From assembly GCA_024403715.1 (NCBI GenBank), contig JAKSRJ010000003.1, forward strand, positions 1-64,000: 64,000 nt of DNA, written 5' to 3'. The translations under genes were made by a program, and so were the position numbers. Numbering within the stretch: position 1 is the stretch's first letter; the number at the start of each line of letters is the position of its first letter. The DNA is from Saccharofermentans sp. Lineage in GTDB: Bacteria > Bacillota > Clostridia > Saccharofermentanales > Saccharofermentanaceae. This document shows positions 10,544-29,259 of the stretch, in pieces. A model generated the notes under the pieces. That model saw only the letters and a program-made list of their open reading frames with translations, had not been told where the DNA came from and did not search any database.

Positions 10544-12082
10544 ATGAGAAACGATAGTCAAAGAATTGCTAAAAATACATTGTTTTTGTATTTTCGTATG
10601 CTTCTTATTATGGTTGTCAATTTATACACTTCAAGAGTTACCCTAAATGTTCTTGGAGTTGATGATTTTGGTATATACCAGACTGTTTGTGGCGTTGTGA
10701 CATTTCTTGCTTTTTTAAGTAATGCACTTGGAAGCGGAACATCAAGATTCATTACTTTTGAAATGGGAAAGGAAGAACCAAGGCTTAAAGAGCTTTTTTC
10801 TACAGTGAGAATAGCACACCTTGTATTAGGCGTAATCATTGTAATATGTGGTGAGTTAATCGGTTTGTGGGCAATTAATAACAAGTTAGTTATTCCAGCT
10901 GAAAGGTTAAATGCTGCTATTTTTGCTTTTCATTTTTCTATGGTGGCAACTTTTTTTCAAATTACTCAAGTGCCATATAATGCCATTATCATCGCATATG
11001 AAAGAATGAATGTATATGCATATGTAAGCATTTTAGAGGCTATTGGAAATCTTGGGATAGTTTATTTGTTAGATATACTATTTTTTGATAAGTTAGAGCT
11101 CTATTCAGTTTTAATGTTTATTGTAATAGTAACCATTATGATGACCTATAGAATATATTGTAGAAAGCAGTTCGAAGAAGTACGATCAAATTTGGTATTT
11201 GAAAAAGATTTGTTTAAAAGTATAGCTTCATTTGCTGGTTGGAATTTATTAACAAGTTCAGCGAGCTCTTTGGCAAATCAGGGCGTGACAATAGTAACAA
11301 ATGTATTCTTTAACCCTGCTGTAGTTACGGTAAGAACTCTAGCCTTAAAGATAAATAATATAATTAATACTTTCATAGGAAATTTTAGAACAGCAGTCAA
11401 TCCTCAGATAATTAAAAAATATGCTTCAGATGATTTTGAAGGTTCAAAGAAGCTGGCTTTAGAATCAACGAAATATACTTACTATCTTATGTTGGTAATT
11501 GTAATGCCAGTATTTTTTCTTGTAGAGCCTGCCCTTAAGATTTGGTTAGGAGAGGTGCCAGAGGGCCTAGAATTATTTGTAGAACTTACTTTGATACAAG
11601 GATTATTTCAAGCAATAGATACTTCTTTGTATGCTCCAATTTATGCAAAAGGAAGAATAAAAGAAAACGCAATTATATGTCCTTTATTTGAGTCATTGCA
11701 GCTTCCAATAATCTATTTTCTATTCAAAAGAGGGGCTCCACCAATAACCTTGGCTTGGGTTGAACTTGGAGCATATATTATTCTAGCTGTCGTCATAAAG
11801 CCAATTTTGGTTCATTTAATAGCAAAGTATAATTATTGGGATACTATTAAGATGTTGATTTCTTGTGGTGTTATTACAGTAGTATCAATTATTATTCCGG
11901 TTCTTGTTAGAATAGTATTAACTCCGAATACTGTTATTGGTTTTATTTCAATTGGATTCGCGTGCGAGCTTTCCTTAGGATTAGTTATATGGTCAATTGG
12001 TTTAGATAAAAATATGAAGGTCATGCTGATTCAGATTTTAAAGCATAAGTTAAATAGTAAAGGTGTTGGATTTTATGATTGA
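10544..12082 (+). CDS. Wzx-type oligosaccharide flippase (MATE/PST superfamily)
   Basis: A 512-residue polytopic membrane protein with about 12-14 hydrophobic segments spread over its whole length. The N-terminus has NTLFLYFRMLLIMVVNLYTS and a GVDDFGIYQTV segment, a typical RfbX/Wzx opening. It should move the undecaprenyl-pyrophosphate-linked repeat unit across the membrane. It lies between glycosyltransferase-type genes and modification genes, and its end overlaps the start of the next gene by eight bases. No Wzy polymerase or Wzz-like regulator is nearby, so what happens after flipping is unclear. Confidence 0.9.
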   Translation: MRNDSQRIAKNTLFLYFRMLLIMVVNLYTSRVTLNVLGVDDFGIYQTVCGVVTFLAFLSNALGSGTSRFITFEMGKEEPRLKELFSTVRIAHLVLGVIIVICGELIGLWAINNKLVIPAERLNAAIFAFHFSMVATFFQITQVPYNAIIIAYERMNVYAYVSILEAIGNLGIVYLLDILFFDKLELYSVLMFIVIVTIMMTYRIYCRKQFEEVRSNLVFEKDLFKSIASFAGWNLLTSSASSLANQGVTIVTNVFFNPAVVTVRTLALKINNIINTFIGNFRTAVNPQIIKKYASDDFEGSKKLALESTKYTYYLMLVIVMPVFFLVEPALKIWLGEVPEGLELFVELTLIQGLFQAIDTSLYAPIYAKGRIKENAIICPLFESLQLPIIYFLFKRGAPPITLAWVELGAYIILAVVIKPILVHLIAKYNYWDTIKMLISCGVITVVSIIIPVLVRIVLTPNTVIGFISIGFACELSLGLVIWSIGLDKNMKVMLIQILKHKLNSKGVGFYD

Positions 12083-13895
12083 GATAAAGGACAAAAAGGA
12101 TTGTTGTGGCTGTAATGCTTGTGGTGATATATGTCCCAATAATGCTATTGATTTTTCAACAGATATAGAAGGTTTTTGGTATCCTACAGTTAATCAATCT
12201 AAATGTATAGGATGTGGACTGTGTAATAATATTTGTCCGGTAATTACTCAATGCAAATCGAAAAATGTGAATGATAAAAAACCAGTGTGTTATGTGGCTG
12301 AGCATAGAAGTGTGGAAGTAGTTTTTTCAAGTACTTCAGGAGGTATGTTTTCTGCCTTAGCAGAGTATATGTACAGCCATAATGGTTATGTTGGTGGTGC
12401 AGTTCATAATGAGGATTTTTCTGTATCGCATTTTATTTCTAATTCTAAAGCTGACTTAAAGAGACTTAGAAGATCAAAAGATCTTCAGAGTAATGCTGAA
12501 GGTTTCTATAAGGAAGTTAAGGGAATACTAGATGCTGATAAAGGGGTGCTTGTTTGCGGAGTTCCATGTCAGATAGCAGGATTAATTAATTATCTAGGCA
12601 AGGATTACGATAATCTAGTTACGATTGACTTAATATGTGCGGGGGTTAATTCACCGAAGGTATGGCGTAAGTACTTGGATTATATTGAAGAACTTAATAG
12701 TTCCCATATTATTTGGACTGAGAATAAATCAAAGGAGTACGGCTGGAATAATCTTACCCAGAAATTTATCTTTGAAGACGGAAAGGAGTATTTTGATACT
12801 CGAAAAACTAGTTTATTTACTCATGGATATATAGAGTCACACTTATACTGTCGACCATCCTGTTATGATTGCAGGTTTAAAGGGTTTCCAAGAGTATCAG
12901 ATATTACAATTGGTGATTTTTGGGGGATAACAAATTACAGCAATAATTACAATTCCGATATGGGCACATCTTTGGTGTTGATTAATTCAAAAAAAGGAAA
13001 GGATTACTTTGAATTAATCAAAAAGAGAATTAACTACGAAGACGCTGATTTAGATTGGGCTTTATCAGGAAATCCCGCGCTTAGTAGTTCAATATCTATT
13101 CTTTCTGATAAAAGAACAGAATTCTTCTCTGATTTAGATAACTTACGATTTGATCAATTGATTGAAAAATACTCGGTTAGTAAGAAATCTCATATAAAAA
13201 CTTACTTAAGGAAATTAAAAAAGAAATTGGGGTTTATTAGACGTGTAGTCAATACAACTCGTTTAAATCCAGTTGCTTTGTATCAAACTATTAAATATAG
13301 TGGCATTAAGAATTTACTTAAGGGAAAAGGTATTCTTTGTGGTACGAACTCTCATATTAAGATTGATAAAACCGCTGATCTGGAATTTGAAGGTGTTTTG
13401 ACTTTTGGAAGAAAAGAGAAGTTCGTTAGAAGCAAACAGGAATCAAGATTATTTGTTGGGAAGAATGCTACCTTTAAGGTGCTTGGAGACTTTGAAATTG
13501 ATTCTGATTGTGAATTAGTTGTCTTTGAAAATGCAGAGCTAATAATTCATGGTGGAAAGCATAGTGGAAGTGATGCCAATACGGGGTTATGCATAATATG
13601 TGGTGAAAAAATAGAAATACTGAGCGATGTTGGAATTGGAAGAAAAGTTACAATTCGTGATACCAATGGTGCTAGTCATTATATTAATACAACTGGATAT
13701 AGACCATCACGACCGATAGAAATAGGGGAAAAAGCATGGATTTGCGAAGCTGCAACAATTATGCCTGGTGTGAAAATTGGGCGAGGTGCTATTGTAGGTG
13801 GGTGCTCTATGGTAACAAAATCTGTCCCAGCGCATGCTATGGTTTCAGGTATCCCTGCTTGTGTAGTTCAGGAAAACGTTTTATGGAAATGGTAG
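12075..13895 (+). CDS. fusion: ferredoxin/FrhB-type oxidoreductase plus hexapeptide acyltransferase
   Basis: A protein of about 606 residues joining two activities. The N-terminal part has two 4Fe-4S ferredoxin motifs (CCGCNACGDICP and CIGCGLCNNICP) followed by the coenzyme F420 hydrogenase/dehydrogenase beta-subunit domains, with VCGVPCQIAGL and CYDCRFKG cysteines (to about residue 340). The C-terminal part (about 390-606) is a left-handed beta-helix acyltransferase ending in the GVKIGRGAIVGGCSMVTKSVP pattern typical of WbbJ/maltose acetyltransferase-like enzymes. The start is ATG 12075, with GGTG nine bases ahead; a GTG at 12063 is less likely. FrhB-like proteins are common in glycan loci with unclear redox roles. 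A fused acyltransferase suggests consecutive steps on one sugar. Confidence 0.85.
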   Translation: MIEIKDKKDCCGCNACGDICPNNAIDFSTDIEGFWYPTVNQSKCIGCGLCNNICPVITQCKSKNVNDKKPVCYVAEHRSVEVVFSSTSGGMFSALAEYMYSHNGYVGGAVHNEDFSVSHFISNSKADLKRLRRSKDLQSNAEGFYKEVKGILDADKGVLVCGVPCQIAGLINYLGKDYDNLVTIDLICAGVNSPKVWRKYLDYIEELNSSHIIWTENKSKEYGWNNLTQKFIFEDGKEYFDTRKTSLFTHGYIESHLYCRPSCYDCRFKGFPRVSDITIGDFWGITNYSNNYNSDMGTSLVLINSKKGKDYFELIKKRINYEDADLDWALSGNPALSSSISILSDKRTEFFSDLDNLRFDQLIEKYSVSKKSHIKTYLRKLKKKLGFIRRVVNTTRLNPVALYQTIKYSGIKNLLKGKGILCGTNSHIKIDKTADLEFEGVLTFGRKEKFVRSKQESRLFVGKNATFKVLGDFEIDSDCELVVFENAELIIHGGKHSGSDANTGLCIICGEKIEILSDVGIGRKVTIRDTNGASHYINTTGYRPSRPIEIGEKAWICEAATIMPGVKIGRGAIVGGCSMVTKSVPAHAMVSGIPACVVQENVLWKW

Positions 13896-15067: not shown

Positions 15068-15292
15068 ATGGTTACTTCTGAGCAGTTTTTAAAAGATTTT
15101 AAAAGTTTATTATCTACAAATGAGGATATCACTTTTGATACAGATTTACTTGAAATTGATGGTTGGGACTCCTTTAGTGCCATGGCATTTTTAGCCATGA
15201 TAGACGAGAAATATGGCATAAAGGCTGAACCTTTTGCAGTTGCAGAATCAATATTTGTGGAAGATTTATATAGTATTGTATCAAATACCTAA
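15068..15292 (+). CDS. acyl/peptidyl carrier protein of the glycan locus
   Basis: A 74-residue four-helix carrier protein. Ser35 in the GWDSFSAM motif is the expected phosphopantetheine attachment site; the following acidic helix (MAFLAMIDEKYG) is typical for docking to partner enzymes. It would carry the acyl or aminoacyl group activated by the adenylation enzyme encoded directly downstream. Its neighbours (adenylation enzyme, type II thioesterase, membrane acyltransferase) argue against a fatty-acid-synthesis role. No phosphopantetheinyl transferase is encoded in the window, so a house enzyme must modify it. Confidence 0.92.
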   Translation: MVTSEQFLKDFKSLLSTNEDITFDTDLLEIDGWDSFSAMAFLAMIDEKYGIKAEPFAVAESIFVEDLYSIVSNT

Positions 15293-15311
15293 TATCAATG
15301 GAGGAAATGTT

Positions 15312-16826
15312 ATGAATCGTCTTATAACTGAATATTTGGAAAAGACTGCTGTAACTTTCCCTGATAAGATTGCATTCATTGATCAGAATAGAGAGATTAC
15401 ATTTTCCAATTTACGGAAAGAGGCGTTAAGTATCGCAGGAAAACTTATAGAAAAGGGATATTATAAGCAACCAGTATTACTGTTTATGGAGAAGAGTATC
15501 TCATTAATAAGTTGCTTTTTAGGAGTAGCGTATTCTGGTAATTTTTATTCACCAATCGATACTAAAATGCCTACCGCGAGAATAGAAAAAATAATAGCCA
15601 CCTTAAAGCCTGCTGTAGTAATAACAGATAACAAGCATAAAGATCAGGTGGTTCAGTTTGTCTCTAATTGTGATGTTTGGCTTTTTGAAGATATGATTGA
15701 AAAACAAGTTGTGGATGTATCATCTGTCTTTTCTATCACCAATAGGATAATTGATACAGATATTTTGTATGTTCTTTTTACTTCAGGTTCAACAGGGATA
15801 CCCAAAGGAGTGATTATTAATCACAAAGCAGTGATTGATTTTGTTGATTGGATATCTGATTGCTATGGTTTTGATGAGACAACGGTTTTAGGAAATCAAG
15901 CACAGCTATACTTTGATTTATCTATTCAGGATGTTTATGTTCCTATAAAAACAGGTGCTACAACAGTTTTAATCTCGAATAGAATGTATACGGCTCCTGT
16001 AAGAGTTTGGAAAACTATATTGAAATACCAAGTTAATACTTTAGTTTGGATTCCTTCAATGCTAAGCTTATTTGCTAATCTAGATATACTTAGAAATGTT
16101 GAGAAGGGCAAACTTAAAACGGTTCTATTTTGTGGCGAAGTAATGCCTATGAAGCAGTTAAATTATTGGATTAAAGAATATCCTGATGTAGTTTATGGTA
16201 ATCTATATGGTCCTACTGAGTGCACGGAAGCATGCACATATTACACTGTTGATCGTGGCTTTAGTGACGATGATGTTTTACCAATAGGAAAACCATGTGA
16301 GAATTCCGATGCCATGATAATTGCTGACGATGGCAGAATAATTGATTCTCCAGGCGAGATAGGTGAACTTTACATAAAGGGAACTTGCTTGAGCAGTGGA
16401 TATTATGGAGATTGGGATAAAACAAATGAGGTTTTTGTTCAGAATCCATTAAATAACCAGTATCCAGAGATGGTATATAAAACTGGAGATTTGGTGTGCC
16501 TTAATGAGTATCATGAGCTCGTCTATGTAAGTAGAAAGGATAATCAAATTAAAATTAGAGGATATAGAGTTGAGTTGGGGGAAATTGAGGCGGTTGTGTC
16601 TTCAATGCCTAATATTAATTATAACTGTTGTTTGTTTGATTCCATAGATGAAAAGATAATTCTAGTGTATACAGGTGATGTAACTGAAGAGGAGTTAAAT
16701 TCTAGCTTAGAAAAAAAACTTCAACATTATATGATTCCTTCTCAATATATTAAGCGGGATGAAATGCTTTTTAATATCAATGGAAAAGTTGATAGACAAG
16801 CATTGGCCAATATGTATTTATCATAA
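15312..16826 (+). CDS. stand-alone adenylation enzyme (DltA/NRPS A-domain-like)
   Basis: A 504-residue ATP-dependent adenylating enzyme. Core motifs are FTSGSTGIPKG (phosphate-binding loop), QLYFDLSIQDVY, NLYGPTECTE, KTGDL, KIRGYRVELGE and the C-terminal NGKVDRQAL lysine. It should activate a carboxylic or amino acid as an adenylate and load the carrier protein upstream. Cys274 in LFCGEVMP appears to correspond to the Cys that helps DltA prefer D-alanine, so D-alanine or a similar small amino acid is a plausible substrate (inference). The ATG at 15312, after a GGAGG-type site (15300-15304), is preferred over a longer frame that would overlap the carrier gene. Confidence 0.88.
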   Translation: MNRLITEYLEKTAVTFPDKIAFIDQNREITFSNLRKEALSIAGKLIEKGYYKQPVLLFMEKSISLISCFLGVAYSGNFYSPIDTKMPTARIEKIIATLKPAVVITDNKHKDQVVQFVSNCDVWLFEDMIEKQVVDVSSVFSITNRIIDTDILYVLFTSGSTGIPKGVIINHKAVIDFVDWISDCYGFDETTVLGNQAQLYFDLSIQDVYVPIKTGATTVLISNRMYTAPVRVWKTILKYQVNTLVWIPSMLSLFANLDILRNVEKGKLKTVLFCGEVMPMKQLNYWIKEYPDVVYGNLYGPTECTEACTYYTVDRGFSDDDVLPIGKPCENSDAMIIADDGRIIDSPGEIGELYIKGTCLSSGYYGDWDKTNEVFVQNPLNNQYPEMVYKTGDLVCLNEYHELVYVSRKDNQIKIRGYRVELGEIEAVVSSMPNINYNCCLFDSIDEKIILVYTGDVTEEELNSSLEKKLQHYMIPSQYIKRDEMLFNINGKVDRQALANMYLS

Positions 16827-16841
16827 GTGGAGCTAGATGAT

Positions 16842-17531
16842 GTGAAAAAGAGAATTCAATTATTTCTTCTTCCTTTCGCTGGGGGAAGTTCGTTATCTTT
16901 TATGCGTCTGACAAGGTTTTTAGATCCTTCTATCGAAGCGATTACAATTGAGTATTCTGGAAGGGGTACACGCCGAGATGAGAATTGTATTGCTGATTAT
17001 TGGATGTTTGTAAATGATGTTGTACTACAAATAAAAAAGAACAGGAATACGAGCATTCCTTATGCAATTCTTGGCTATAGTATGGGTAGTGTAATTGAAT
17101 ATGATATTTTACGTAATTGTGATTTCGACCAAGGTCCCAAGCATTGTTTTTTTTGCGCCGAAGGTGGTTTGATTGAGCCGAGTAAAGTTAGGCAAATAAG
17201 CGAGTTGGATGATAATGATTTTTTGGGGATTATTCGTTCTCTTGGAGGAATAGATGACAGATTGTTTTGTAATAAGGATGCATTTGATGAGTATCTTGAT
17301 TTGATAAGAAATGATTTTAATATATTGCGTCAATTCAAATATGACGGAGGTCAGATAAATCACGACATAACTGTTATTTATGGTGATAATGATGGAACGT
17401 GTGTCAATATGGATGATTGGGAGAAAGTAACAACAGCTAGCGTAGAACTTGTTGTTGTTGAAGGTAATCATTTTTTTATTAATCAGAGATATAAAGAGAT
17501 AGCACAAATGATTAATGAAAAAATAGTGTGA
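16842..17531 (+). CDS. type II thioesterase (alpha/beta hydrolase)
   Basis: A protein of about 229 residues related to the GrsT/SrfAD external thioesterases that clear wrongly loaded carrier proteins or release their cargo. The opening LLPFAGGSSLSF forms the oxyanion region. The nucleophile Ser lies in GYSMGS, where the usual GHSMG has Tyr for His. The acid is in IYGDNDGT and the His in VEGNHFF. I choose GTG at 16842, nine bases after GGAG; an in-frame GTG at 16827 abuts the previous stop. Its place next to the carrier and adenylation genes supports a role in carrier-bound cargo editing or transfer. Confidence 0.86.
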   Translation: MKKRIQLFLLPFAGGSSLSFMRLTRFLDPSIEAITIEYSGRGTRRDENCIADYWMFVNDVVLQIKKNRNTSIPYAILGYSMGSVIEYDILRNCDFDQGPKHCFFCAEGGLIEPSKVRQISELDDNDFLGIIRSLGGIDDRLFCNKDAFDEYLDLIRNDFNILRQFKYDGGQINHDITVIYGDNDGTCVNMDDWEKVTTASVELVVVEGNHFFINQRYKEIAQMINEKIV

Positions 17532-17565
17532 ATGAATAAAAGATTCGTTAAATACGGAGAAAAGA

Positions 17566-18621
17566 ATGACATTAAATATATTTTTAATGCTACTGTTTGG
17601 ATTAATACTATATAGCTGCTTAAAGAATTGTTTGTTTAATAGTAGTGAATGCAATTCTTTCTCGATAGAAAGTACAGAATCTCTTCGTGGAATTGCAACA
17701 GTGATTATAATAATGTCTCATATTGCTCAATATGAGACATCATTTGAGAACGTAGTAATCGGAGGAGAGATAACTAGAAGTTTTGTTCTGACATGGGGTG
17801 GTGTAGGGGTTTCTCTCTTTTTTTTGCTTTCTGGATTTGGTTGTTACTTGTCTATTAATAAATCGTCAGCACCACTAATTTGGAGTGTAAAACATGCAAT
17901 AAGGGTAATATTTCATTTTATAGTAGTATATATTATAGTCATTCTCTCCTCGGTTTTATTTTTGAAAGAAGAGAAAAATATAGGAAGTATACTCGTTAAT
18001 TTTCTTTTATTGAGAATACCCAACTCGACAACCTGGTATCTTAAGGCTCAAATTCTTTTTTATCTAATACTTGGAGTAAGTGTAGTGATATCTAGAAAAC
18101 AGTCACATACATTAGTAATATTAGGTGTCACCCTTTATGCTTTGATAGGTAAATTTTTATTATGCTTATCTGATTTTTGGTGGAAAACCTCATTATGTTT
18201 TGCAGCTGGCTGTTGTATTGCTAAATACAAGGTTGTTTTATTAAGTTGTATCAGTAAGATATATGTAAGAACCATCATTGTTTTGCTAGGCGCAATCGCT
18301 TATGTTTGTGTTATAAACGATTATCAATACAGGTTGCTTATTCAATTGCCAGCGTATGTGTTAGTAGCTTTCTCGATTGTTGAGTTATGGAATTGGATTG
18401 GAAGAAAAAGTGAATTTTATAGCAAAACAGGTCAAATCTCACTTGATTTATATCTCGTTCATATAGCTTATGTTGAAGCTGTATTTGGATTAAACATTAA
18501 TGTAAATATCAAATTTTTGTTTTTTTTATTGTTAATAATTGTTGAGTCCGTGATATCGTATTGTATCTCAGAGAAACTATATAAATTTTTCAATAGCAAA
18601 CTTATAACACTCAATAGTTAG
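17566..18621 (+). CDS. membrane acyltransferase, Acyltransferase-3 family
   Basis: A 351-residue integral membrane protein with about ten hydrophobic segments, of the family that acylates surface glycans (for example O-acetylation of O-antigen and Nod factor). The motif ESLRGIATVIIIMSH carries the conserved Arg and the His proposed to be catalytic. A cytoplasmic donor usually supplies the acyl group. Here the carrier protein, adenylation enzyme and thioesterase next to it suggest a carrier-bound rather than CoA-bound donor, which would be unusual. It is the last gene of the AT-rich island. GGAG precedes the ATG. Confidence 0.87.
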   Translation: MTLNIFLMLLFGLILYSCLKNCLFNSSECNSFSIESTESLRGIATVIIIMSHIAQYETSFENVVIGGEITRSFVLTWGGVGVSLFFLLSGFGCYLSINKSSAPLIWSVKHAIRVIFHFIVVYIIVILSSVLFLKEEKNIGSILVNFLLLRIPNSTTWYLKAQILFYLILGVSVVISRKQSHTLVILGVTLYALIGKFLLCLSDFWWKTSLCFAAGCCIAKYKVVLLSCISKIYVRTIIVLLGAIAYVCVINDYQYRLLIQLPAYVLVAFSIVELWNWIGRKSEFYSKTGQISLDLYLVHIAYVEAVFGLNINVNIKFLFFLLLIIVESVISYCISEKLYKFFNSKLITLNS

Positions 18622-19794: not shown

Positions 19795-20718
19795 TTAGTC
19801 TGTCTTAAACTCCGGCAGCAACTCATCTCCCGAAGCGTCATCTTGAAGAAAGGCGTTTTCCTGATCAAGTAGCATTAGATATTCGGAGGCCGCGTTATAG
19901 TGGCCTGCTGGTACTTTGCGCTTCATGAATTCTGGGAGCTTCATTTGAGGGTATTTGTACTCGAATGGTGTGTACTGATTCATGAGGCTGATGTAGATGT
20001 TATTGCCATATGTCGTGCATAAATAATCGAGGACTTTTTTGGTGTCAAATAGCTGACCAGGAAGCATCAGATGGCGAACAATTAAGCCGCGCTTCATAAG
20101 CCCGTCTTCGCCTATTACTGCAGGTCCTACTTGCCTATACATCTCGGCAATAGCCTTGCATGCTACTTCGTAATAATCTGGAGCATTACAAAGCTCCTTC
20201 GAAAGTTTATTAGAATAGAACTTTAAGTCAGGCATGTATATGTCTACAAGACCATCCAGAAGCTTCAAGGATTCTACGCTCTCATAACCTCCAGAATTAA
20301 CCGCTACTGGTATTGTTAATCCTGTATTTTTAGCGATTTTGATGGCTTCGGCAACACTGGGAATAAAGTGCCCTGGAGTGACTAGATTAATGTTATGTGC
20401 GCCTTGGCTTTGTAGCGATAAAAAAGCTTGCGCAAGTTCATCGGGAGACATAGTTTTACCACATCCAGTCGCGCCTCTAGATACGCTAAAATTTTGACAA
20501 AAACAGCATCCGAGAGAGCACCCCTCAAAGAACACAGTTCCACTACCTCGAGTGCCTGTAATTATAGGCTCTTCACCGAAATGCAGCATGCATAAATTTA
20601 CGACAGGAATGTCACCCATCTTGCAAAAACCACGTTGGTTCAAAGATCGGTTAACACCACATCGTCTAGGACAAATTATGCAGTTTTCATACATTCTATT
20701 ATTATAATATTCGCGCAT
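19795..20718 (-). CDS. radical SAM protein, pyruvate formate-lyase activase-like (PflX type)
   Basis: A 307-residue radical SAM protein. The cluster motif is CSLGCCFC (Cys67, Cys71, Cys74). An extra N-terminal cysteine group (CIICPRRCGVNR, and Cys32) is characteristic of the PflX/YgiQ-like putative activating-enzyme relatives. The segments LVTPGHF, NSGGYES and IYMPDLKF are typical. The family is widespread in anaerobes; related proteins sit near amidases or AmmeMemoRadiSam genes, but the substrate is unproven. It is convergent with wecB and divergent from the transglutaminase operon. A TATAAT on the minus strand (complement of 20728-20733) could serve its transcription. Confidence 0.86.
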   Translation of the reverse strand: MREYYNNRMYENCIICPRRCGVNRSLNQRGFCKMGDIPVVNLCMLHFGEEPIITGTRGSGTVFFEGCSLGCCFCQNFSVSRGATGCGKTMSPDELAQAFLSLQSQGAHNINLVTPGHFIPSVAEAIKIAKNTGLTIPVAVNSGGYESVESLKLLDGLVDIYMPDLKFYSNKLSKELCNAPDYYEVACKAIAEMYRQVGPAVIGEDGLMKRGLIVRHLMLPGQLFDTKKVLDYLCTTYGNNIYISLMNQYTPFEYKYPQMKLPEFMKRKVPAGHYNAASEYLMLLDQENAFLQDDASGDELLPEFKTD

Positions 20719-20793
20719 ATGTATATTATTATAAGCGCCTTTTTGCGAAATGCGTGATAAAATCTACAAGGCAAACTATTTTGAGGTGGAAAA

Positions 20794-22131
20794 GTGAAAA
20801 GTCACGGTAACGTACAACAGCGTAATCACAAGGTTCGCGGAATAACAGAAAAGAAGGGTAGCCTTGCAGCTATCGTTGTAGTTTTAATCGTAGCGGCAGT
20901 AATCGTTGGCTCATACTTTTTCTACAAACATTACCTCACAGAGAAGATTATTCCTGAGGTTACTATCGAGTCTGGTACTCCAATCGATATCAATTCATTT
21001 ATTACTGAGCAGCGCGCAGATGCTTTCTTTGTAACTGATGTTACTCAAATAGATCCCAATATTCCTGGAAGCTACGGAATTAAGGTTAGTGTAGGTGATA
21101 TCGTGGTTGTTACTAGAGATGTAATTCTCAATATCGTGGATACTACAGCACCTACAGCAAATCCAGTACCACAGACCATTTTTACTGACACTATTCCATC
21201 CGCTGATACAGTAGTTACAGATATTGTTGACCTAGCTTCTGTTACTATCGAATATGCTGAGCCTATGGGCGAGACAATCGAAGCTGGCGAGCGCGATATT
21301 CCTGTAAGAATCACAGATGCTTATGGCAATGAGAACATCATTTATGTGCCTTTCGTAATTATCGAAGATTACGAAGCTCCTGTAATTAATGGTGCACATA
21401 ACTTCGAGTCGTTTATCGGCGAGCCGATTATGTATTTTGACGGTGTAACAGCTACTGATAACTATGATCCTAATCCTACGCTCGATGTTGATAATTCTCA
21501 GGTAGTTGTTACTGAAGAGGGTACATATCCTGTAACTTATACTGCTACTGATGCTCATGGTAACCAGAGCGAAGTTACCATTAAGATTACACTTAGAATC
21601 AGACCTGAACGCTACTACGAGCCAGAAGAAATTTATGAACTTGCTCGTGAGACAATCGAACTCTATGACATCTGTGATGAATCCATGTCTGATTATGAGA
21701 TTACAATGAGAATCTTCGCATGGGTAAGCCAGAATATCAGATACCAGATGGACTCTGATAAGTGTGACTGGACTGCAGGCGCTTATGACGGACTCGTCAC
21801 ATTAAGAGGTGATTGCTATAACTATATGGCTGTATCTCGTGCGATGTTGGGGGCTATGGGAATTGAATCTATCACTATCGAGCGCTATCCGATTAATGTT
21901 TCTTCACACTATTGGAACTTAGTAAATATCGATGGACAGTGGTATCACTGCGATGCATGCGTATTCCTCAACATGACGGACATTACTTATATCTGCTGTA
22001 GAACAGATGCTGAACTTGATCCAGGTAACAATAGTTACGATGTAGAGACTTTGCCTGAAGGCGTTGTAGTTGCAACTGAGTCCATTCAGGACATGTTTGA
22101 TTTTGAAAACCTAAGCATGAGAGTTCAGTAA
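20794..22131 (+). CDS. membrane-anchored transglutaminase-like protein with Ig-like domains (copy 1)
   Basis: A 445-residue protein with a basic N-terminus and one membrane anchor (about residues 28-47), so the rest faces outside. Residues about 55-270 contain repeated beta-sandwich segments with DxTAP/DYEAP-type joints similar to bacterial Ig-like or HYR domains. The C-terminal transglutaminase-like domain has a Cys-His-Asp triad: Cys341 in RGDCYNYM, His372 in SSHYWNL, Asp387 in WYHCDACV. The GTG start is preceded by GAGGTGG at 20783-20789. It is followed without a gap by a paralogue. Such proteins cross-link, cleave or bind peptides at the surface; here the link to the Dlt-like genes suggests a wall-polymer or peptidoglycan partner. 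Confidence 0.87.
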   Translation: MKSHGNVQQRNHKVRGITEKKGSLAAIVVVLIVAAVIVGSYFFYKHYLTEKIIPEVTIESGTPIDINSFITEQRADAFFVTDVTQIDPNIPGSYGIKVSVGDIVVVTRDVILNIVDTTAPTANPVPQTIFTDTIPSADTVVTDIVDLASVTIEYAEPMGETIEAGERDIPVRITDAYGNENIIYVPFVIIEDYEAPVINGAHNFESFIGEPIMYFDGVTATDNYDPNPTLDVDNSQVVVTEEGTYPVTYTATDAHGNQSEVTIKITLRIRPERYYEPEEIYELARETIELYDICDESMSDYEITMRIFAWVSQNIRYQMDSDKCDWTAGAYDGLVTLRGDCYNYMAVSRAMLGAMGIESITIERYPINVSSHYWNLVNIDGQWYHCDACVFLNMTDITYICCRTDAELDPGNNSYDVETLPEGVVVATESIQDMFDFENLSMRVQ

Positions 22132-23493
22132 ATGAAGAAGCATAGTGAGAACAATACTAAGCCTTCAGCTACTCGTCGTAAGGTGAAAAGTAATAAGCGA
22201 TCCAAAACTAAAAAGACACGTATTATCGTGTACTCAATAGCAGGCATCCTTGCAGCTCTTTTAATCACTACAACAATTTGTATTAATTACCTTGGTAAGC
22301 AGCGTGATAAGATTATTCGCGAGGTTACAATCGAACTTCAAGACCAGATTAGACTCGAAGATTTCTTTACTGAGATGCTTCCAGATGCGAGGTTTTATAC
22401 TGATGTTTCTGGAATAGATACAAGCATTCCAGCTTCATATCAGCTCATTGTGGAGGCTAAGGAATTCCGCTATATCTCTATTCGTCAGCCAGTTGTTCTT
22501 AATGTAGTGGATTTGGTTGCACCAACTGGTGAAGCGGTTCCACAGCGTATTTATACTTATAATCTTCCTGATGTTAACGATGTAGTGACTAACGTTTATG
22601 ATTTAACACCAGTTACTATTGCTTATGTAGGTGAACCAGATGTAAGCAGAAGTGGTTCATATGAGATTCCAGTTTCTCTTACAGATACTTCAGGGAATGT
22701 GACTATTATTAATGTTCCTTTTGAGATTATTGATGATCATATCGCGCCACTTATTAGAGGTGCACATGATTTTGAGGCTTTCATTGGCGACCCAATTCAG
22801 TACTTAAATGGAATCACGGTTACTGATAATATCGATCCTAATCCTGATCTTTATGTAGATACTTCTAACGTTAATACTCATATCTCATCTACATTCCCTG
22901 TAACTTATATCGCTACAGATGAGAATGGTAATACCTCTTCTGTTACTGTTAACATGAGACTTCGTGTTAAGCCTGAGCGTTACTATGAGCCAGAGGAAGT
23001 TTATGATTTGTGCCGTCAGGCTATCGAGATTTATCACATCTTTGATGAGGATATGACAGATGTAGAGAAGGCGTTCCGAATAGTTGATTGGTGCTACAAC
23101 CATTTAAGCTTTATTGGAACTTCTGATAAGTCTCACTGGACTACAGCAGTCTATGATGGACTAACTACACTTCAGGGTGACTGCTTTACATATTGGGCGA
23201 TTGTTAAGGCAATGCTTGATGTGTGTGGCATTCCTAATTATCAGGTTACACGTAACCCAATCACATGGTCACCTCATTACTGGAACTTGGTTTATCTTGA
23301 GGGCCAGTGGTACCACTGTGATTCCTGTTATGCATACTATCACGAGGGATATTTCTTTATGTATTCTGACTCAGATTTGCCACCAGGATCTCATACATAT
23401 GATCCAGCAGATTTGCCAGCTGGTATCGTACCTGCAACAGAGTCAATTCAGTACAGAGTTAATTACACGACATTGGAGGTAGCAGACACATGA
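22132..23493 (+). CDS. membrane-anchored transglutaminase-like protein with Ig-like domains (copy 2)
   Basis: A 453-residue paralogue of the preceding gene, with the same plan: a Lys/Arg-rich start, a membrane anchor (about residues 30-50), Ig-like segments and a transglutaminase-like domain. The triad is Cys351 in QGDCFTYW, His382 in SPHYWNL and Asp397 in WYHCDSCY. The spacings (31 and 15 residues) are the same as in copy 1. Shared segments such as the RPERYYEPEE/KPERYYEPEE joint confirm duplication. The start codon directly follows the stop of copy 1, and its stop overlaps the adenylation gene (ATGA), so all are translated from one message. Confidence 0.88.
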   Translation: MKKHSENNTKPSATRRKVKSNKRSKTKKTRIIVYSIAGILAALLITTTICINYLGKQRDKIIREVTIELQDQIRLEDFFTEMLPDARFYTDVSGIDTSIPASYQLIVEAKEFRYISIRQPVVLNVVDLVAPTGEAVPQRIYTYNLPDVNDVVTNVYDLTPVTIAYVGEPDVSRSGSYEIPVSLTDTSGNVTIINVPFEIIDDHIAPLIRGAHDFEAFIGDPIQYLNGITVTDNIDPNPDLYVDTSNVNTHISSTFPVTYIATDENGNTSSVTVNMRLRVKPERYYEPEEVYDLCRQAIEIYHIFDEDMTDVEKAFRIVDWCYNHLSFIGTSDKSHWTTAVYDGLTTLQGDCFTYWAIVKAMLDVCGIPNYQVTRNPITWSPHYWNLVYLEGQWYHCDSCYAYYHEGYFFMYSDSDLPPGSHTYDPADLPAGIVPATESIQYRVNYTTLEVADT

Positions 23494-24989
23494 TGAGAAG
23501 TGTAGTCGAATATCTAGATATAACAGCTAAGAAATATCCAACTAAGGTTTGCTATCGTGATGAGAAGACCGCGTTAACCTTTGAAGATGTTTATAATCAG
23601 TCTCGCCTTGCAGGTTCTTTCTTACTTGGCGAAGGACTTTGCCGTGAAGCTGTAGCAGTTTATATGTCCAAGACTCCAAGCGAGCTTGCAGCTTTTATTG
23701 CTGTTCTTCAAGCGGGATGTTTCTATGTACCTATCGATGATGAGATGCCTTCAAAAAGAATCGAGCTTATCTTCGATAACTTAAAGCCACGTGCTGTTAT
23801 CTGTGATGAAGAGACACGTGAAAACGCTTCTAAGTTTGCAGGTAGCGCGAAGGTTTATTCTTGGGATGAGATTAAGAATTCTGCTATTAATGAAGAGGCT
23901 TTAACTCAGGTTCAGAAAACTAGAATTGATACTGATCTCGCATATATTATGTATACTTCAGGTTCTACAGGTATTCCTAAGGGTGTTGCAGTTTGCCACA
24001 GAAGCTTAATTGATTATATTGAGTCCTTCTGTGATGTTATGAAGTTTGATGAGGAGACTATATTTGGTTCCCAGACACCATTTTATTTTGACGCTTCTTT
24101 GAAGGATATTTACCCAACGCTTAAGTGTGGTTGCGAGACTGTAATTGTTCCTCATAGCCTTTTTATGTTTCCTATTAAACTCACAGAGTTTTTGAATGAA
24201 TATAAAATCAACACTCTTTGCTGGGTAGTATCTGCGCTTACTATGATTTCAGCATTTGGCGTTCTCGATGAGAATCCACCTAAGTATTTAAAGATAGTTG
24301 GCTTCGGAGGCGAAGTTTTCCCTATCAAGCAGTATAAGAGATGGAAGAAAGCTCTCCCTGATGTTAGATACATAAACCTCTATGGCCCAACTGAGACTAC
24401 TGGTGTATCTATGTACTACGAGGTTGACAGAGACTTTGAAAAAGATGAGGCTATCCCTCTTGGTAAGGCATTTGAGAACGTAGATATTTTCCTTTTGGAT
24501 GAAGATAACAAGCTTTCTACAGAAGGTGAGATTTGCATGCGTGGAACCGCAGTTACTATGGGTTACTATAATGACTTCGGTAGAACTAGCGAAGCCTTCG
24601 TTCAGAACCCACTTAACGACAAGTATCCTGAGATTATCTACCGCACAGGCGACCTTGCTCGTATTAATGAGAGAGGCGAGATGGTATTTGTCTCACGTAA
24701 GGATTTTCAGATTAAGCATATGGGACACAGAGTTGAGTTAGGTGAGATTGAAGCTGACGTTAACTCTATCGAGGGCGTGTCTGCATCCTGCGCAGTGTAT
24801 CTTAAGAAAAAGGACCGAATTGAGTTATACTATGAAGGTGGGCCTGAGGAAGGTGACTTAACTAATATGCTTAAAGAGAGACTTCCTCGATATATGGTTC
24901 CAACTAAGGTTAATAAGATGGATAAGCTTCCACTAACACCTAATGGTAAGCTTGATCGTAAGGGTTTAACTGCTCTATCTGAAAAGTAA
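23490..24989 (+). CDS. stand-alone adenylation enzyme of the Dlt-like operon
   Basis: A 499-residue adenylating enzyme of the DltA/NRPS A-domain class. Motifs are MYTSGSTGIPKG, FYFDASLKDIYP, NLYGPTETTG, RTGDLARI, KHMGHRVELGE and NGKLDRKGL. It should load the carrier protein encoded ten bases downstream. At the position where DltA-like enzymes have Cys in FCGE (Cys274 in the adenylation enzyme at 15312-16826), this protein has Gly273 in GFGGEVFP, so its substrate may differ from D-alanine (inference). The start ATG overlaps the upstream stop and has GGAGG ten bases ahead. It is similar in length and motif order to DltA but should not be named dltA without a test. Confidence 0.88.
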   Translation: MMRSVVEYLDITAKKYPTKVCYRDEKTALTFEDVYNQSRLAGSFLLGEGLCREAVAVYMSKTPSELAAFIAVLQAGCFYVPIDDEMPSKRIELIFDNLKPRAVICDEETRENASKFAGSAKVYSWDEIKNSAINEEALTQVQKTRIDTDLAYIMYTSGSTGIPKGVAVCHRSLIDYIESFCDVMKFDEETIFGSQTPFYFDASLKDIYPTLKCGCETVIVPHSLFMFPIKLTEFLNEYKINTLCWVVSALTMISAFGVLDENPPKYLKIVGFGGEVFPIKQYKRWKKALPDVRYINLYGPTETTGVSMYYEVDRDFEKDEAIPLGKAFENVDIFLLDEDNKLSTEGEICMRGTAVTMGYYNDFGRTSEAFVQNPLNDKYPEIIYRTGDLARINERGEMVFVSRKDFQIKHMGHRVELGEIEADVNSIEGVSASCAVYLKKKDRIELYYEGGPEEGDLTNMLKERLPRYMVPTKVNKMDKLPLTPNGKLDRKGLTALSEK

Positions 24990-25004
24990 AAAGGAGATAT
25001 GACT

Positions 25005-25232
25005 ATGGAAGATTTAATTGAGATTTTGAAGGACCTTCATGCTGATGTTGACTACGATACATGCGAGACATTGATTGACGACAAGATTCTTGATTCTTTT
25101 GATATTGTTTCTATCGTATCTGAAGTAGATGACAAGTTTGACGTGGCTATCCCCGCTAAGGAACTTATCCCTGAGAACTTTAATTCTGCTAAGGCTCTCT
25201 GGGCATTAATCGAGAGACTAATGGAGGACTAA
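25005..25232 (+). CDS. carrier protein of the Dlt-like operon (DltC-like)
   Basis: A carrier protein of about 75 residues. The phosphopantetheine Ser is in LDSFDIVSIV (Ser31 from this start), with an acidic docking helix after it. The motif DSFD resembles DltC. I prefer ATG 25005, eight bases after AAGGAG, over ATG 24999, which is only two bases from it. The stop overlaps the first base of the MBOAT gene, so the two are translationally coupled. It should hand the activated group to the MBOAT protein. Confidence 0.92.
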   Translation: MEDLIEILKDLHADVDYDTCETLIDDKILDSFDIVSIVSEVDDKFDVAIPAKELIPENFNSAKALWALIERLMED

Positions 25233-26812
25233 TGCTTTTTACCTCTCTGAAGTTTGTATTATTTATCGTAGTATTATTTGTACTCTACTACACAGTTGCA
25301 AAGCATGATCAATGGCCACTTTTGCTTGTAGCCAGCTTGGTATTCTATTACATGCAGGATTATCGATTCCTGTTATTCATTGTAATTACTGCTGTTACTG
25401 CTTATATACTTGCTATAGCTACTGAAAACTTTGCAGCTAGGCGTAAGGCATATCTTAAAGAACATAAGTCCGAGATGGACGATACAAAGAAGAAAAAGTA
25501 CAAGAATACAACTAAGCGTGTACAGGCCTTGTATCTCGCTATTGCTTTGCTTATTAATCTCGGTATACTAGCTACAACTAAATACACAAACTTCATTATT
25601 GAGAATATTAATGCTTTAAGATCTGAGCCATTATCTTTTGCAAATCTAATTGTACCTATGGGTATAAGCTTTTATACATTCCAGACCGTGTCTTACTCTA
25701 TCGATGTATCTCGTGGTACCGTAAAAGCTCAGCGTAATTTCTGGAAGTTTTTACTCTTCGTATCTTTCTTCCCACAGCTTGTTCAAGGTCCTATCAGCAG
25801 ATATGGAGACTTATCCCAGACTCTATATGAGGAGCATAAGTTTAACTATAAGGAAGTATCCTTAGGTTACATCAGAATTCTCTGGGGTTACTTTAAGAAG
25901 CTTGTTATCGCCGATAGATTAGTTGTTGCCTTGAAGGTATTGGTAAGCGACTCCGAAATGTACCAGGGTGGCTTTGTATTTATTGTAATGATGCTCTATG
26001 CAGCTCAGCTTTATTGCGACTTTACGGGTGGTATTGATATTACTATCGGTATTGCTCAGATTCTTGGAATTAAGATGGCAGAGAACTTCAATCTTCCTTA
26101 TTTTTCCAAGAATATCAAGGACTACTGGAATCGTTGGCATATCACAATGGGTTCATGGTTTACAGATTATATTTTCTATCCACTTTCTGTATCACCTACT
26201 ATTTTGAAGCTTTCTAAGTGGTCTCGTCAGCATCTAGGAAATGCTATTGGTAAGCGTATACCAGTTTATGTCGCATGCTTTTGTGTATGGCTTACAACTG
26301 GTATTTGGCATGGCGCTGCTTGGCATTTTGTAGTATGGGGTCTTATGAACTTCGCAGTTATCATGATTTCTCAGGAGTTAGAGCCACTTTACGCTAAGTT
26401 CCATGCTAAGTTTGGTCTCAAGGAAAAGGCAGGATATAAGGTGTTTGAGATTGTAAGGACATTCTTCCTTATGTCTTCTTTAAAGCTCTTTGATTGCTAT
26501 AGAGATGCTGGTCTTACATTTAAGATGTTTGCTACTATGTTCTATAAGCCTGGGTTTGGAAGTCTAGGTTCATCCGAGCTCTTAAATCTTGGACTTACAT
26601 CAAGCGATTACATTGTTGCAGGAATTGCTATCGTAATAGTGTTCCTAGTTAGCCTTTATAAAGCTTTGAAGGGAAGAGAACTTCGTGAGTTCTTATTTGA
26701 GAAGTATCCACTTTTCCTAGTAGCATGTACAGTTTTGGTCATTGTGATAGCGGTATTTGGCGCTTATGGCGTCGGTTTTGATGCTTCGCAATTTATCTAC
26801 AATCAGTTCTAA
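25232..26812 (+). CDS. MBOAT-family membrane O-acyltransferase (DltB/AlgI-like)
   Basis: A 526-residue polytopic protein with about 11 membrane segments. MBOAT signature regions are PMGISFYTFQT, FPQLVQGPI, DFTGGIDITIG, YWNRWHITMGSW and TGIWHGAAWHF, where His360 is the expected catalytic His and the WH of NRWH is the second conserved one. DltB moves D-alanyl groups from carrier-bound pantetheine to the outside; AlgI-like relatives move acetyl groups. The adjacent carrier protein favours the DltB mode. A charged soluble stretch (about residues 70-95) lies between early segments. Its product should act with the SGNH-like protein downstream. Confidence 0.92.
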   Translation: MLFTSLKFVLFIVVLFVLYYTVAKHDQWPLLLVASLVFYYMQDYRFLLFIVITAVTAYILAIATENFAARRKAYLKEHKSEMDDTKKKKYKNTTKRVQALYLAIALLINLGILATTKYTNFIIENINALRSEPLSFANLIVPMGISFYTFQTVSYSIDVSRGTVKAQRNFWKFLLFVSFFPQLVQGPISRYGDLSQTLYEEHKFNYKEVSLGYIRILWGYFKKLVIADRLVVALKVLVSDSEMYQGGFVFIVMMLYAAQLYCDFTGGIDITIGIAQILGIKMAENFNLPYFSKNIKDYWNRWHITMGSWFTDYIFYPLSVSPTILKLSKWSRQHLGNAIGKRIPVYVACFCVWLTTGIWHGAAWHFVVWGLMNFAVIMISQELEPLYAKFHAKFGLKEKAGYKVFEIVRTFFLMSSLKLFDCYRDAGLTFKMFATMFYKPGFGSLGSSELLNLGLTSSDYIVAGIAIVIVFLVSLYKALKGRELREFLFEKYPLFLVACTVLVIVIAVFGAYGVGFDASQFIYNQF

Positions 26813-26823
26813 GGAGGAATGAC

Positions 26824-28095
26824 ATGAAGAAGATTTCTGACAATGACAATGCTCCTAGAATGAGAGTTCCAGAATTAAGCATTCAATCACAATCTGTAGA
26901 ATCTAGTGATGAGAAGATTCCAGTAAATATTGAACCAGTCGAAGAACCTATAGTTAAAGAAAAAACTGTTACTGAGCTTTTGTCTTTAGTTTTCAAAAAG
27001 TTATTCACTAGCCGCAGATTTATAGCAATCTGTTGCTGGATATTGACGATAGTTTTCATTGCTTTAACTGTCTTTGGTTTATATGTAGCCCAACGCTTAG
27101 TTATGCCAAAGTATCAGCATGGTATTGTTGAAGGTTCAATGATTGAAGAGTACTACCAAAGTGGAGTTCCACATGAAGTATTATTCCTCGGAGACTGTGA
27201 GGTGTACGAGAATATTTCGACAGTTACTCTTTATGAGAACTATGGAATTTCTTCGTATATAAGAGGATCTGCTCAGCAGCTTACATGGCAATCTTATTAT
27301 TTACTCGAGGATACTCTTCGTTACGAGACTCCTGATGTTGTAATTTTTAATGTCTTGGCTTTGAAGTATGGTGAACCACAAAGTGAGTCTTATAACAGAA
27401 TGACTCTAGATGGTATGGAGTGGTCTTCTACTAAGTGGGATGCTATTAACGCTTCCATGACTGAGGGGGAGAATATGTTAGATTATATTTTCCCAATTCT
27501 TCGTTATCATTCACGCTGGAGCGAGTTAACTCAGACTGACTTTGATTGCCTATGGGAAAAGAATAGAGTTACTGTAAACGGCTATTATATGAGAGCTGAT
27601 GTTAATCCTGAAGGTGAATTTCCGCCAGCGATGCCTTTGACAGACTACCGTCTTCCAGAAGCTTCAATGGACTATCTAGCTAGAATCGCTCAGCTTTGCC
27701 GTGAGAATGATATCGAATTAGTTCTTATCAAAGCACCAACACTTTATCCTTACTGGTACGAGGAATGGGACTCTCAGGTAAGACGTTTTGCGAATACTAA
27801 TAACATTCCTTATATTAACTATATATATTTAAGGGATCAGATTGGCCTTGATATGACTGTAGATACTTATGATGCAGGCTTACATCTTAATGTAACAGGT
27901 GCAGAGAAGTGGGCAGATTATATCGGAGCATATCTTGTGCGTAATTTTGAGCTTACTGACTATCGTGAGGTTCCTGAAGTAGCAACAATATGGGATCATG
28001 ATGTTGAATTTTATAATAATTTAAGAGACGCTCAGCTTGCCGAGATTGAACAGTATGGTGAGTTAATGTCTTGGGGCGTCAACGCTATAGAGTAA
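26824..28095 (+). CDS. membrane-anchored SGNH-like protein with Cys at the nucleophile position (DltD-position)
   Basis: A 423-residue protein with a long acidic cytoplasmic start (about 1-60), one membrane segment (about 66-90) and an outside domain of SGNH-like plan. The first motif reads FLGDCEVYEN, with Cys125 where SGNH enzymes have Ser. A C-terminal DAGLH motif supplies Asp350 and His354 and is followed by LNVTGAEKWADYI. DltD-like or AlgX/PatB-like proteins take the group exported by an MBOAT and place it on the polymer. Position and topology fit that role, but the Ser-to-Cys change makes direct transfer from DltD unsafe. AAGGAGG lies six bases before the ATG. Confidence 0.82.
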   Translation: MKKISDNDNAPRMRVPELSIQSQSVESSDEKIPVNIEPVEEPIVKEKTVTELLSLVFKKLFTSRRFIAICCWILTIVFIALTVFGLYVAQRLVMPKYQHGIVEGSMIEEYYQSGVPHEVLFLGDCEVYENISTVTLYENYGISSYIRGSAQQLTWQSYYLLEDTLRYETPDVVIFNVLALKYGEPQSESYNRMTLDGMEWSSTKWDAINASMTEGENMLDYIFPILRYHSRWSELTQTDFDCLWEKNRVTVNGYYMRADVNPEGEFPPAMPLTDYRLPEASMDYLARIAQLCRENDIELVLIKAPTLYPYWYEEWDSQVRRFANTNNIPYINYIYLRDQIGLDMTVDTYDAGLHLNVTGAEKWADYIGAYLVRNFELTDYREVPEVATIWDHDVEFYNNLRDAQLAEIEQYGELMSWGVNAIE

Positions 28096-28107
28096 ATGGA
28101 GGTATTT

Positions 28108-28683
28108 ATGAAAAGAAAGATTTTAGCAGCTGTTTTGGCAGCTAGTATGTGCATGGGTATGGCTGCTTGTGCTAAGGAGGAAGAGGATACAGCTCCTGTT
28201 GTAATATCTGGTGGTGAAGCTGTAGCTACTACTGTTGCTGAAGGTGATGAGGCTGTATCTGAGGCTGAAGTATCATCATCTTCTGATGCTTACTATGTTC
28301 GTTATAACGGTATGGAGATTCACATGAATCAGCCATCTGATGAAGTGATTTCTGCATTAGGTGACGATTATTCATACTTTGAGGCGCCATCTTGTGCTTA
28401 TGAAGGTATGGATAGAATATATACATACAGCTCAATTGCTGTATATTGCTACACAATGGATGGTGTAGATTACATCTCTTCTGTACAGCTCCGCGACGAT
28501 ACAGTGGCTACTGTAGAGGGCATCAGAGTTGGTGATTCATCTGATTCTGTATACGCTACTTATGGCGAAGATGGCGTGCAGGGTACTTCAGGAGTGGAGT
28601 TCTTTAAGGGTGATTCCATCTTAGCTTTTGTATTTGAAGGCGGAAATGTTATCGGAATTACTTACACTGCTATTGTAGGATAA
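28108..28683 (+). CDS. small lipoprotein of the Dlt-like operon
   Basis: A protein of about 191 residues with a lipoprotein signal: a KRK start, a hydrophobic stretch and a lipobox-like MAAC followed by an acidic linker rich in Glu, Val and Ser (to about residue 55). The mature domain (about 60-190) is beta-rich, contains two similar blocks (GMEIHMNQPSDEVISALG and GIRVGDSSDSVYATYG) and may be related to SmpA/DUF4309-like folds, but I cannot name it. The start is ATG 28108, five bases after GGAGG (28098-28102). As the last gene of the operon it is probably an accessory outside component. Confidence 0.78.
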   Translation: MKRKILAAVLAASMCMGMAACAKEEEDTAPVVISGGEAVATTVAEGDEAVSEAEVSSSSDAYYVRYNGMEIHMNQPSDEVISALGDDYSYFEAPSCAYEGMDRIYTYSSIAVYCYTMDGVDYISSVQLRDDTVATVEGIRVGDSSDSVYATYGEDGVQGTSGVEFFKGDSILAFVFEGGNVIGITYTAIVG

Positions 28684-28745
28684 TAGAGAATTAAGCCGAA
28701 TATGCGCGATTTTTGGAGAATTAAAAACTTTTTTCGCGTAGAGTA

Positions 28746-28814
28746 TTGACTTATATAAGGCCAGCAAGTATTATACTTGAGCGCTAAAAAGAGCGCCTTA
28801 ATAAAAGATAGGAG
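28746..28814 (+). promoter_or_regulatory. promoter and short leader of rplM-rpsI
   Basis: TTGACT (28746-28751) and TATTAT (28769-28774) are 17 bases apart; TATACT at 28772-28777 is an overlapping alternative. The message would start near 28781. Its first bases GCGCT (28781-28785) can pair with AGCGC (28792-28796) around AAAAAG, giving a small 5' hairpin of the kind seen in L13 leaders. AGGAG at 28810-28814 is the ribosome binding site, ten bases before the ATG. The regulatory role is inferred. Confidence 0.6.
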
Positions 28815-28824
28815 TTAAAGTCAT

Positions 28825-29259
28825 ATGAAGACATTTGTTGCTACACCTTCAAATATCGAGAGAAAATGGCTTGTTATCGACGCTACAGGTAAGACACTTG
28901 GTCGTCTTGCTACTGAGGTTGCTAAGCTTCTCAGAGGTAAGCATAAGCCAGTTTATACACCTTTTGCTGATACAGGCGATTATGTAATCGTACTTAACGC
29001 TTCTAAGATGGTTCTTACAGGTAAGAAGCTTGATCAGAAGTACTACCGTCATCACTCTGGTTTCCCAGGTGGAATGAAGGAGACAGATTATAAGACAATG
29101 ATGGCTAAGAAGCCTGAGATGGCTTTGGAGCTCGCAGTTAAGGGTATGCTCCCTAAGAACTCCCTCGGCCGTCAGATGTTCAAGAAGCTCCACGTATACG
29201 CTGGTGCAGAGCACAATCACGCAGCTCAGCAGCCTGTTGAGTACACATTTGAGCAGTAA
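28825..29259 (+). CDS. rplM: 50S ribosomal protein L13
   Basis: A 144-residue protein with the L13 signature features: [14 protein letters not shown] at the start, [53 protein letters not shown] and [15 protein letters not shown]. It is an early-assembly protein of the large subunit that binds 23S rRNA. It is paired with rpsI in the usual order, nine bases apart. Codon use is strongly biased, as expected for a highly expressed gene. Confidence 0.98.

Follow-up and report, generated by a model that had tools for sequence, protein, structure and literature searches.

The pairing of an MBOAT with an SGNH protein is the rule among the known systems of this class: PatA acetylates the tyrosine of an FXYXXF motif, DltX bears the same motif in Dlt, and MBOATs with the motif fused to them use an acyl-CoA donor and no carrier (PMC12148441). 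MBOAT-SGNH pairs modify wall polymers on which interactions with antibiotics, antimicrobial peptides and the host depend. Here, we describe an operon in which a carrier protein and a fused tail occur together. We propose that the whole is best explained as carrier-dependent MBOAT-SGNH envelope aminoacylation with dedicated transglutaminase partners, a reading in which we have moderate confidence. In the open literature we found no published description of such a gene set (one elsewhere is possible), nor anything linking dltD or MBOAT with transglutaminase, or D-aspartate with MBOAT or teichoic acid.

The operon lies in a stretch of 64,000 nucleotides from Saccharofermentans sp. (the window), part of a MAG that is 83% complete. 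Seven ORFs, overlapping or nearly gapless, span positions 20794-28683:

20794-22131, + strand: TG1, transglutaminase-like protein (PF01841, 38.7 bits; AF2 model; triad C341, H372, D387)
22132-23493, + strand: TG2, transglutaminase-like protein, paralogue of TG1 by alignment (PF01841, 34.9 bits; same triad)
23490-24989, + strand: A, stand-alone adenylation enzyme (AMP-binding, 219.7 bits; pocket D201-A202-K205; placed in a tree)
24999-25232, + strand: CP, carrier protein (phosphopantetheine Ser33 in DSFD; weak DltC/ACP matches)
25232-26812, + strand: MBOAT (PF03062, 58.4 bits; H303/H360; C-terminal FIYNQF)
26824-28095, + strand: SGNH protein (AF2 fold; Cys125 in GDCE, D347/D350/H354)
28096-28683, + strand: LP, small predicted lipoprotein, partner gene of SGNH (lipobox-like start MAAC, Cys25)

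The preliminary description had reported seven tightly packed genes at these positions and an order, A-CP-MBOAT-SGNH, unlike that of dltXABCD. Both points hold: TG2 and A overlap by 4 nt and CP and MBOAT by 1 nt, TG1/TG2 and SGNH/LP abut (0 nt), and the family scans agree, with PF01841 above cut-off in both transglutaminases, AMP-binding in A, MBOAT above cut-off and a weak PP-binding match in CP (all Pfam). The SGNH protein and LP of the window gave nothing over cut-off in Pfam or NCBIfam. A purine-rich ribosome-binding site stands 5' of most of the seven genes, and a sigma-70 scan showed no excess of promoter-like sites over shuffled sequence. Elsewhere in the window, a polysaccharide gene cluster ends at 15234-18621 with genes for a thioesterase, an Acyl_transf_3 protein and a second adenylation enzyme of the stand-alone type (pocket DLQ..C..), and we saw no carrier protein gene beside them; at 12063-13895, an iron-sulfur domain of FrhB/FdhB type and a hexapeptide acetyltransferase domain are joined in a single protein.

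Relatives were gathered with the SGNH protein as the sole query, ignoring the other genes, which gave 66 loci with record titles including Saccharofermentans sp., Blautia, Pseudobutyrivibrio, Anaerocolumna and Lachnospiraceae. The protein is present in 37 of the 200 genera sampled from one Lachnospiraceae-type family, and close matches are rare across the phylum. Counting linkage only in the 39 loci whose flanks exceed 6 kb upstream and 5 kb downstream, we found TG and CP in 37 each and A, MBOAT and LP in 36 each, most commonly in the order TG-(racemase)-A-CP-MBOAT-SGNH-LP and mostly with MBOAT directly 5' of SGNH. Nine loci (L061, L094, L068, L071, L076, L081, L083, L086 and L091) have a rearranged order, and a gene set that is reordered yet linked argues for functional and not merely inherited linkage. 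PF01841 matches number 4-17 per genome of 2-7 Mb, so that adjacency of a transglutaminase by chance would be expected in about a few percent of cases; the presence of TG beside the Dlt-like genes in 37/39 loci is thus not chance, and the conservation of this neighbourhood on which the preliminary description depended is found in related genomes. The CP serine, the MBOAT histidine pair, the SGNH Cys/Asp/His and the TG Cys/His/Asp are near-invariant in the relatives.

The AF2 model of the SGNH protein (pLDDT 88.4) shows, besides a single transmembrane helix, an extracytoplasmic SGNH domain whose fold matches TesA (Z 12.4) and DltD (7dxm; Z 11.3 over 244 residues). This fold, along with the Lipase_GDSL_2 match of 40/52 relatives (the window copy has no Pfam match), confirms that the protein is SGNH-like, as first suggested; a DltD profile built from two sequences only did not match it. 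The residue after strand 1, normally serine, is cysteine in 62/64 relatives, with serine only in L078 and L082, both of which also have a variant A. Asp347 and His354 are conserved, and Asp350 is conserved at 98%. Placed by alignment and modelled fold, Cys125 is the candidate nucleophile, and we regard this protein, with Cys for Ser, as a variant and not as a standard MBOAT-SGNH member.

TG1 is modelled (AF2, pLDDT 90.7) with an N-terminal transmembrane helix, three Ig-like domains and a C-terminal TG domain, its best fold match being Streptococcus pyogenes TglA (9crn, Z 15.4; next match Z 10.9). TG2 has 45% identity to TG1 and the same architecture, and both exceed the PF01841 cut-off of 23 bits. 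Beyond the close clade TG identity is only 23-35%, and the Cys-His-Asp triad is intact in all untruncated copies, including those of clusters with up to six TGs. Seven clusters of this kind, in sister species (L115-L117, L120-L122 and L126), combine TG-SGNH(Cys)-LP-TG with one or two GT2 genes, have as many as six TG genes surrounding the others, and are without A, CP and MBOAT; the MBOATs elsewhere in these genomes adjoin an FkbH-like gene, away from TG and SGNH. Loss of the cysteine in these clusters, indicated by a regex scan, was dropped as a candidate, as alignment gives GDCD and intact TG triads.

In light of these clusters, TG, SGNH and LP may form a core served by interchangeable donors, and SGNH may not need a window-type MBOAT. 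The three could then constitute an independent envelope machine for a glycan or glycoprotein, for which A-CP-MBOAT would be just one of two alternative donor modules, and the MBOAT shuttle would not have SGNH as its acceptor. Locus L077, which holds SGNH and LP alone, is consistent with this as are the seven GT2 loci, but A and MBOAT accompany SGNH in 36/39 loci, MBOAT usually stands directly before SGNH, and even the TG-less L173 pairs its MBOAT with an SGNH gene, as known systems do as a rule (PMC12148441). We consider an independent machine unlikely.

The second alternative, a divergent but ordinary Dlt system that D-alanylates teichoic acid, bears on the adenylation enzyme, the carrier and the MBOAT. 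In its favour, all three weakly match Dlt equivalog models, the SGNH fold resembles DltD, and no true DltA turned up among 35 genomes sampled from the genus and the order. However, every equivalog cut-off is missed: A scores 284.8 bits against TIGR01734 (cut-off 559.85) and 293.7 bits against NF003417 (cut-off 476), and MBOAT scores 152.6 bits against the DltB equivalog TIGR04091 (cut-off 375). In a quick tree, a fully supported branch separates the system's A from DltA, which falls on the NRPS side; in a separate tree of the MBOATs, those of the system form one clade (100/99) apart from the DltB group (100/100), from which they lie 4.5 changes per column away. Neither protein groups with its Dlt counterpart, in keeping with the distinct system of the preliminary description. 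The A pocket also differs from that of DltA. Positions 235/236/239 (GrsA numbering) are D-A-K in every standard A, the window's included (D235/A236/K239), where three DltA proteins have D-L-M or D-L-L. Position 301 is Gly (Ala in two loci) as against the Cys of DltA; position 278 was left out because its alignment to DltA is ambiguous. No small ORF ending F.Y..F, and hence no DltX-like microprotein, occurs within 20000-29200. With an Asp-type racemase in the relatives (see below) and Cys for Ser in SGNH as further departures, ordinary D-alanylation appears very unlikely to us.

The window MBOAT itself ends in FIYNQF, with Tyr523 in the motif. S. aureus DltX ends in FIYNEF, and S. aureus DltB has no such tail. 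A C-terminal FXYXXF, as FIY[NS][QR]F, is present in 56/57 MBOATs (L092, the exception, has FIYIKY), and H303/H360 are invariant among relatives. The nearest MBOAT relatives are those of the carrier-type loci L172-L174. A Metabacillus plasmid has CP-A-MBOAT followed by one further gene, so the joint presence of carrier and fused tail is not unique to the window-type system. Separately, in sister genomes L180 (4592-8246) and L181 (11697-15293), an MBOAT ending FIYARI adjoins an FkbH-like protein, so that a glyceryl carrier may be the donor to this MBOAT.

If not D-alanine, what might the exported group be? Lys239 is a residue found in glutamate-activating A domains, and our reading of the pocket's specificity is based on this. 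Most relatives (26/39 loci) encode an Asp/Glu-type racemase (about 240 aa) in the interval from TG to A, and 28 of its 31 copies immediately follow a TG gene. Four copies score 188.8-205.8 bits against TIGR00035 (cut-off 93.1), the model of the cysteate racemase CuyB is partly matched too, and a linked racemase matches the Pyrococcus horikoshii Asp racemase (1jfl) at E 2e-45. Both catalytic cysteines are kept in 31/31, as are an Arg and a Lys that align to R48/K164 in the P. horikoshii enzyme, residues that presumably serve the substrate carboxylate. From sequence, we infer that pocket and racemase linkage agree on an acidic amino acid; the exported group is probably a D-amino acid, D-Glu or D-Asp. 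The window operon has no racemase gene, and in its clade (G000, G012, 99% complete, and G014) no Asp-type racemase was found, only a MurI-like match. MurI supplies D-Glu for peptidoglycan, and a D-Glu substrate would explain the missing racemase; this clade may draw on MurI for D-Glu as its substrate, or may use an L-amino acid instead. As a separate observation, the variant A of L083 (8698-10236) and L086 (11576-13087), with FAAANH, has no amino-group-binding Asp and may activate a non-amino acid.

To the observed anatomy, conservation, motifs, fold and phylogenetic separation, carrier-dependent aminoacylation adds a substrate, a direction and order of transfer, an acceptor and a TG role that we infer. 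A would activate the acidic amino acid, likeliest D-Glu or D-Asp, and load it onto Ser33 of CP, which is invariant among relatives; pocket, racemase linkage and Dlt precedent point to this step. MBOAT would then move this group through the membrane and onto Tyr523 in its tail, a step modelled on PatA and DltX. Cys125 of the SGNH protein, which is anchored in the membrane, would take the group over from the tail and hand it on to an outer acceptor. The TGs and the lipoprotein, given their linkage and the intact triads, would be dedicated partners on the outer face, where the TGs might use the new aminoacyl group for cross-linking, cleavage or attachment.

The preliminary description had the same general outline. 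Its export of a carrier-bound group by MBOAT and SGNH is well supported by the anatomy and by known systems (PMC12148441), but the action of the transglutaminases on the acylated product, which it assumed, is no more than a possibility in view of the clusters without A, CP and MBOAT. Beyond that description go these clusters, the linked racemase of the relatives, the acidic-looking A pocket, the shuttle motif fused to MBOAT and the SGNH Cys. In one version of such action, which we find quite doubtful, the acidic amino acid, esterified via its alpha-carboxyl, would equip a surface polymer with free amines (or with carboxyls of the side chain), and the TGs would use those groups to join proteins or peptides covalently to the polymer, in an aminoacylate-then-cross-link wall assembly via the Cys-type SGNH. 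At the other extreme, the TG genes might be mere bystanders, without catalytic activity or without any connection to the acyl module. This would suit their rapid divergence (23-35% identity beyond the close clade) and the lack of a mechanism tying TG to acylation, but is scarcely credible with linkage in 37/39 loci that survives operon reordering and a triad intact in untruncated copies.

An acidic amino acid in place of D-Ala, Cys for Ser and a near-constant TG would amount to a new surface chemistry among common Clostridia of gut and rumen. It is testable in culturable hosts such as Pseudobutyrivibrio ruminis and Anaerocolumna sedimenticola.

How, then, does the system compare with those already known? 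It is like Dlt in having a stand-alone A, a carrier, an MBOAT and a membrane-anchored SGNH protein, the FXYXXF shuttle motif, and a Glu after the SGNH nucleophile (GSSE in Dlt, GDCE here). Unlike Dlt, it has the motif fused to MBOAT and no DltX, scores under every Dlt equivalog cut-off, with A and MBOAT in separate clades, has Lys in the A pocket and an SGNH Cys (vs the Ser of S. aureus DltD GSSE), and adds TG partners and, in relatives, a racemase, in the gene order A-C-B-D. With PatA/PatB peptidoglycan O-acetylation and AlgI-type pairs it shares a C-terminal FXYXXF on a longer MBOAT and a separate SGNH partner, but those systems use acyl-CoA, without a carrier or adenylation enzyme (PMC12148441). 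The Ig-like and TG domains recall S. pyogenes TglA, a likeness to TG1 in fold only.

Closest in MBOAT and A are L172 and L173 (A/PLP-decarboxylase/CP/MBOAT/SGNH) and L174 (A/CP/MBOAT), which share the Lys at pocket 239 and the combination of carrier and fused tail. In contrast to our system they have no TG, in L172 and L173 a LysA-like decarboxylase takes the place of the racemase, and the SGNH protein of L173 has Ser. L172 (7262-11786) and L173 (6975-12466; with the Ser-type SGNH) apparently represent a further MBOAT system that depends on a carrier, and the group it exports may be a decarboxylated amino acid.

Of the general features of the MBOAT-SGNH class, the catalytic His, the C-terminal FXYXXF and an adjacent membrane-anchored SGNH fold are present and the Ser nucleophile is absent, Ser being the rule in described members but no requirement for such a pair. 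Thus, the system is like Dlt and PatA/PatB in transfer logic but falls outside Dlt, and we file it as carrier-dependent MBOAT-SGNH acylation that differs from the described forms.
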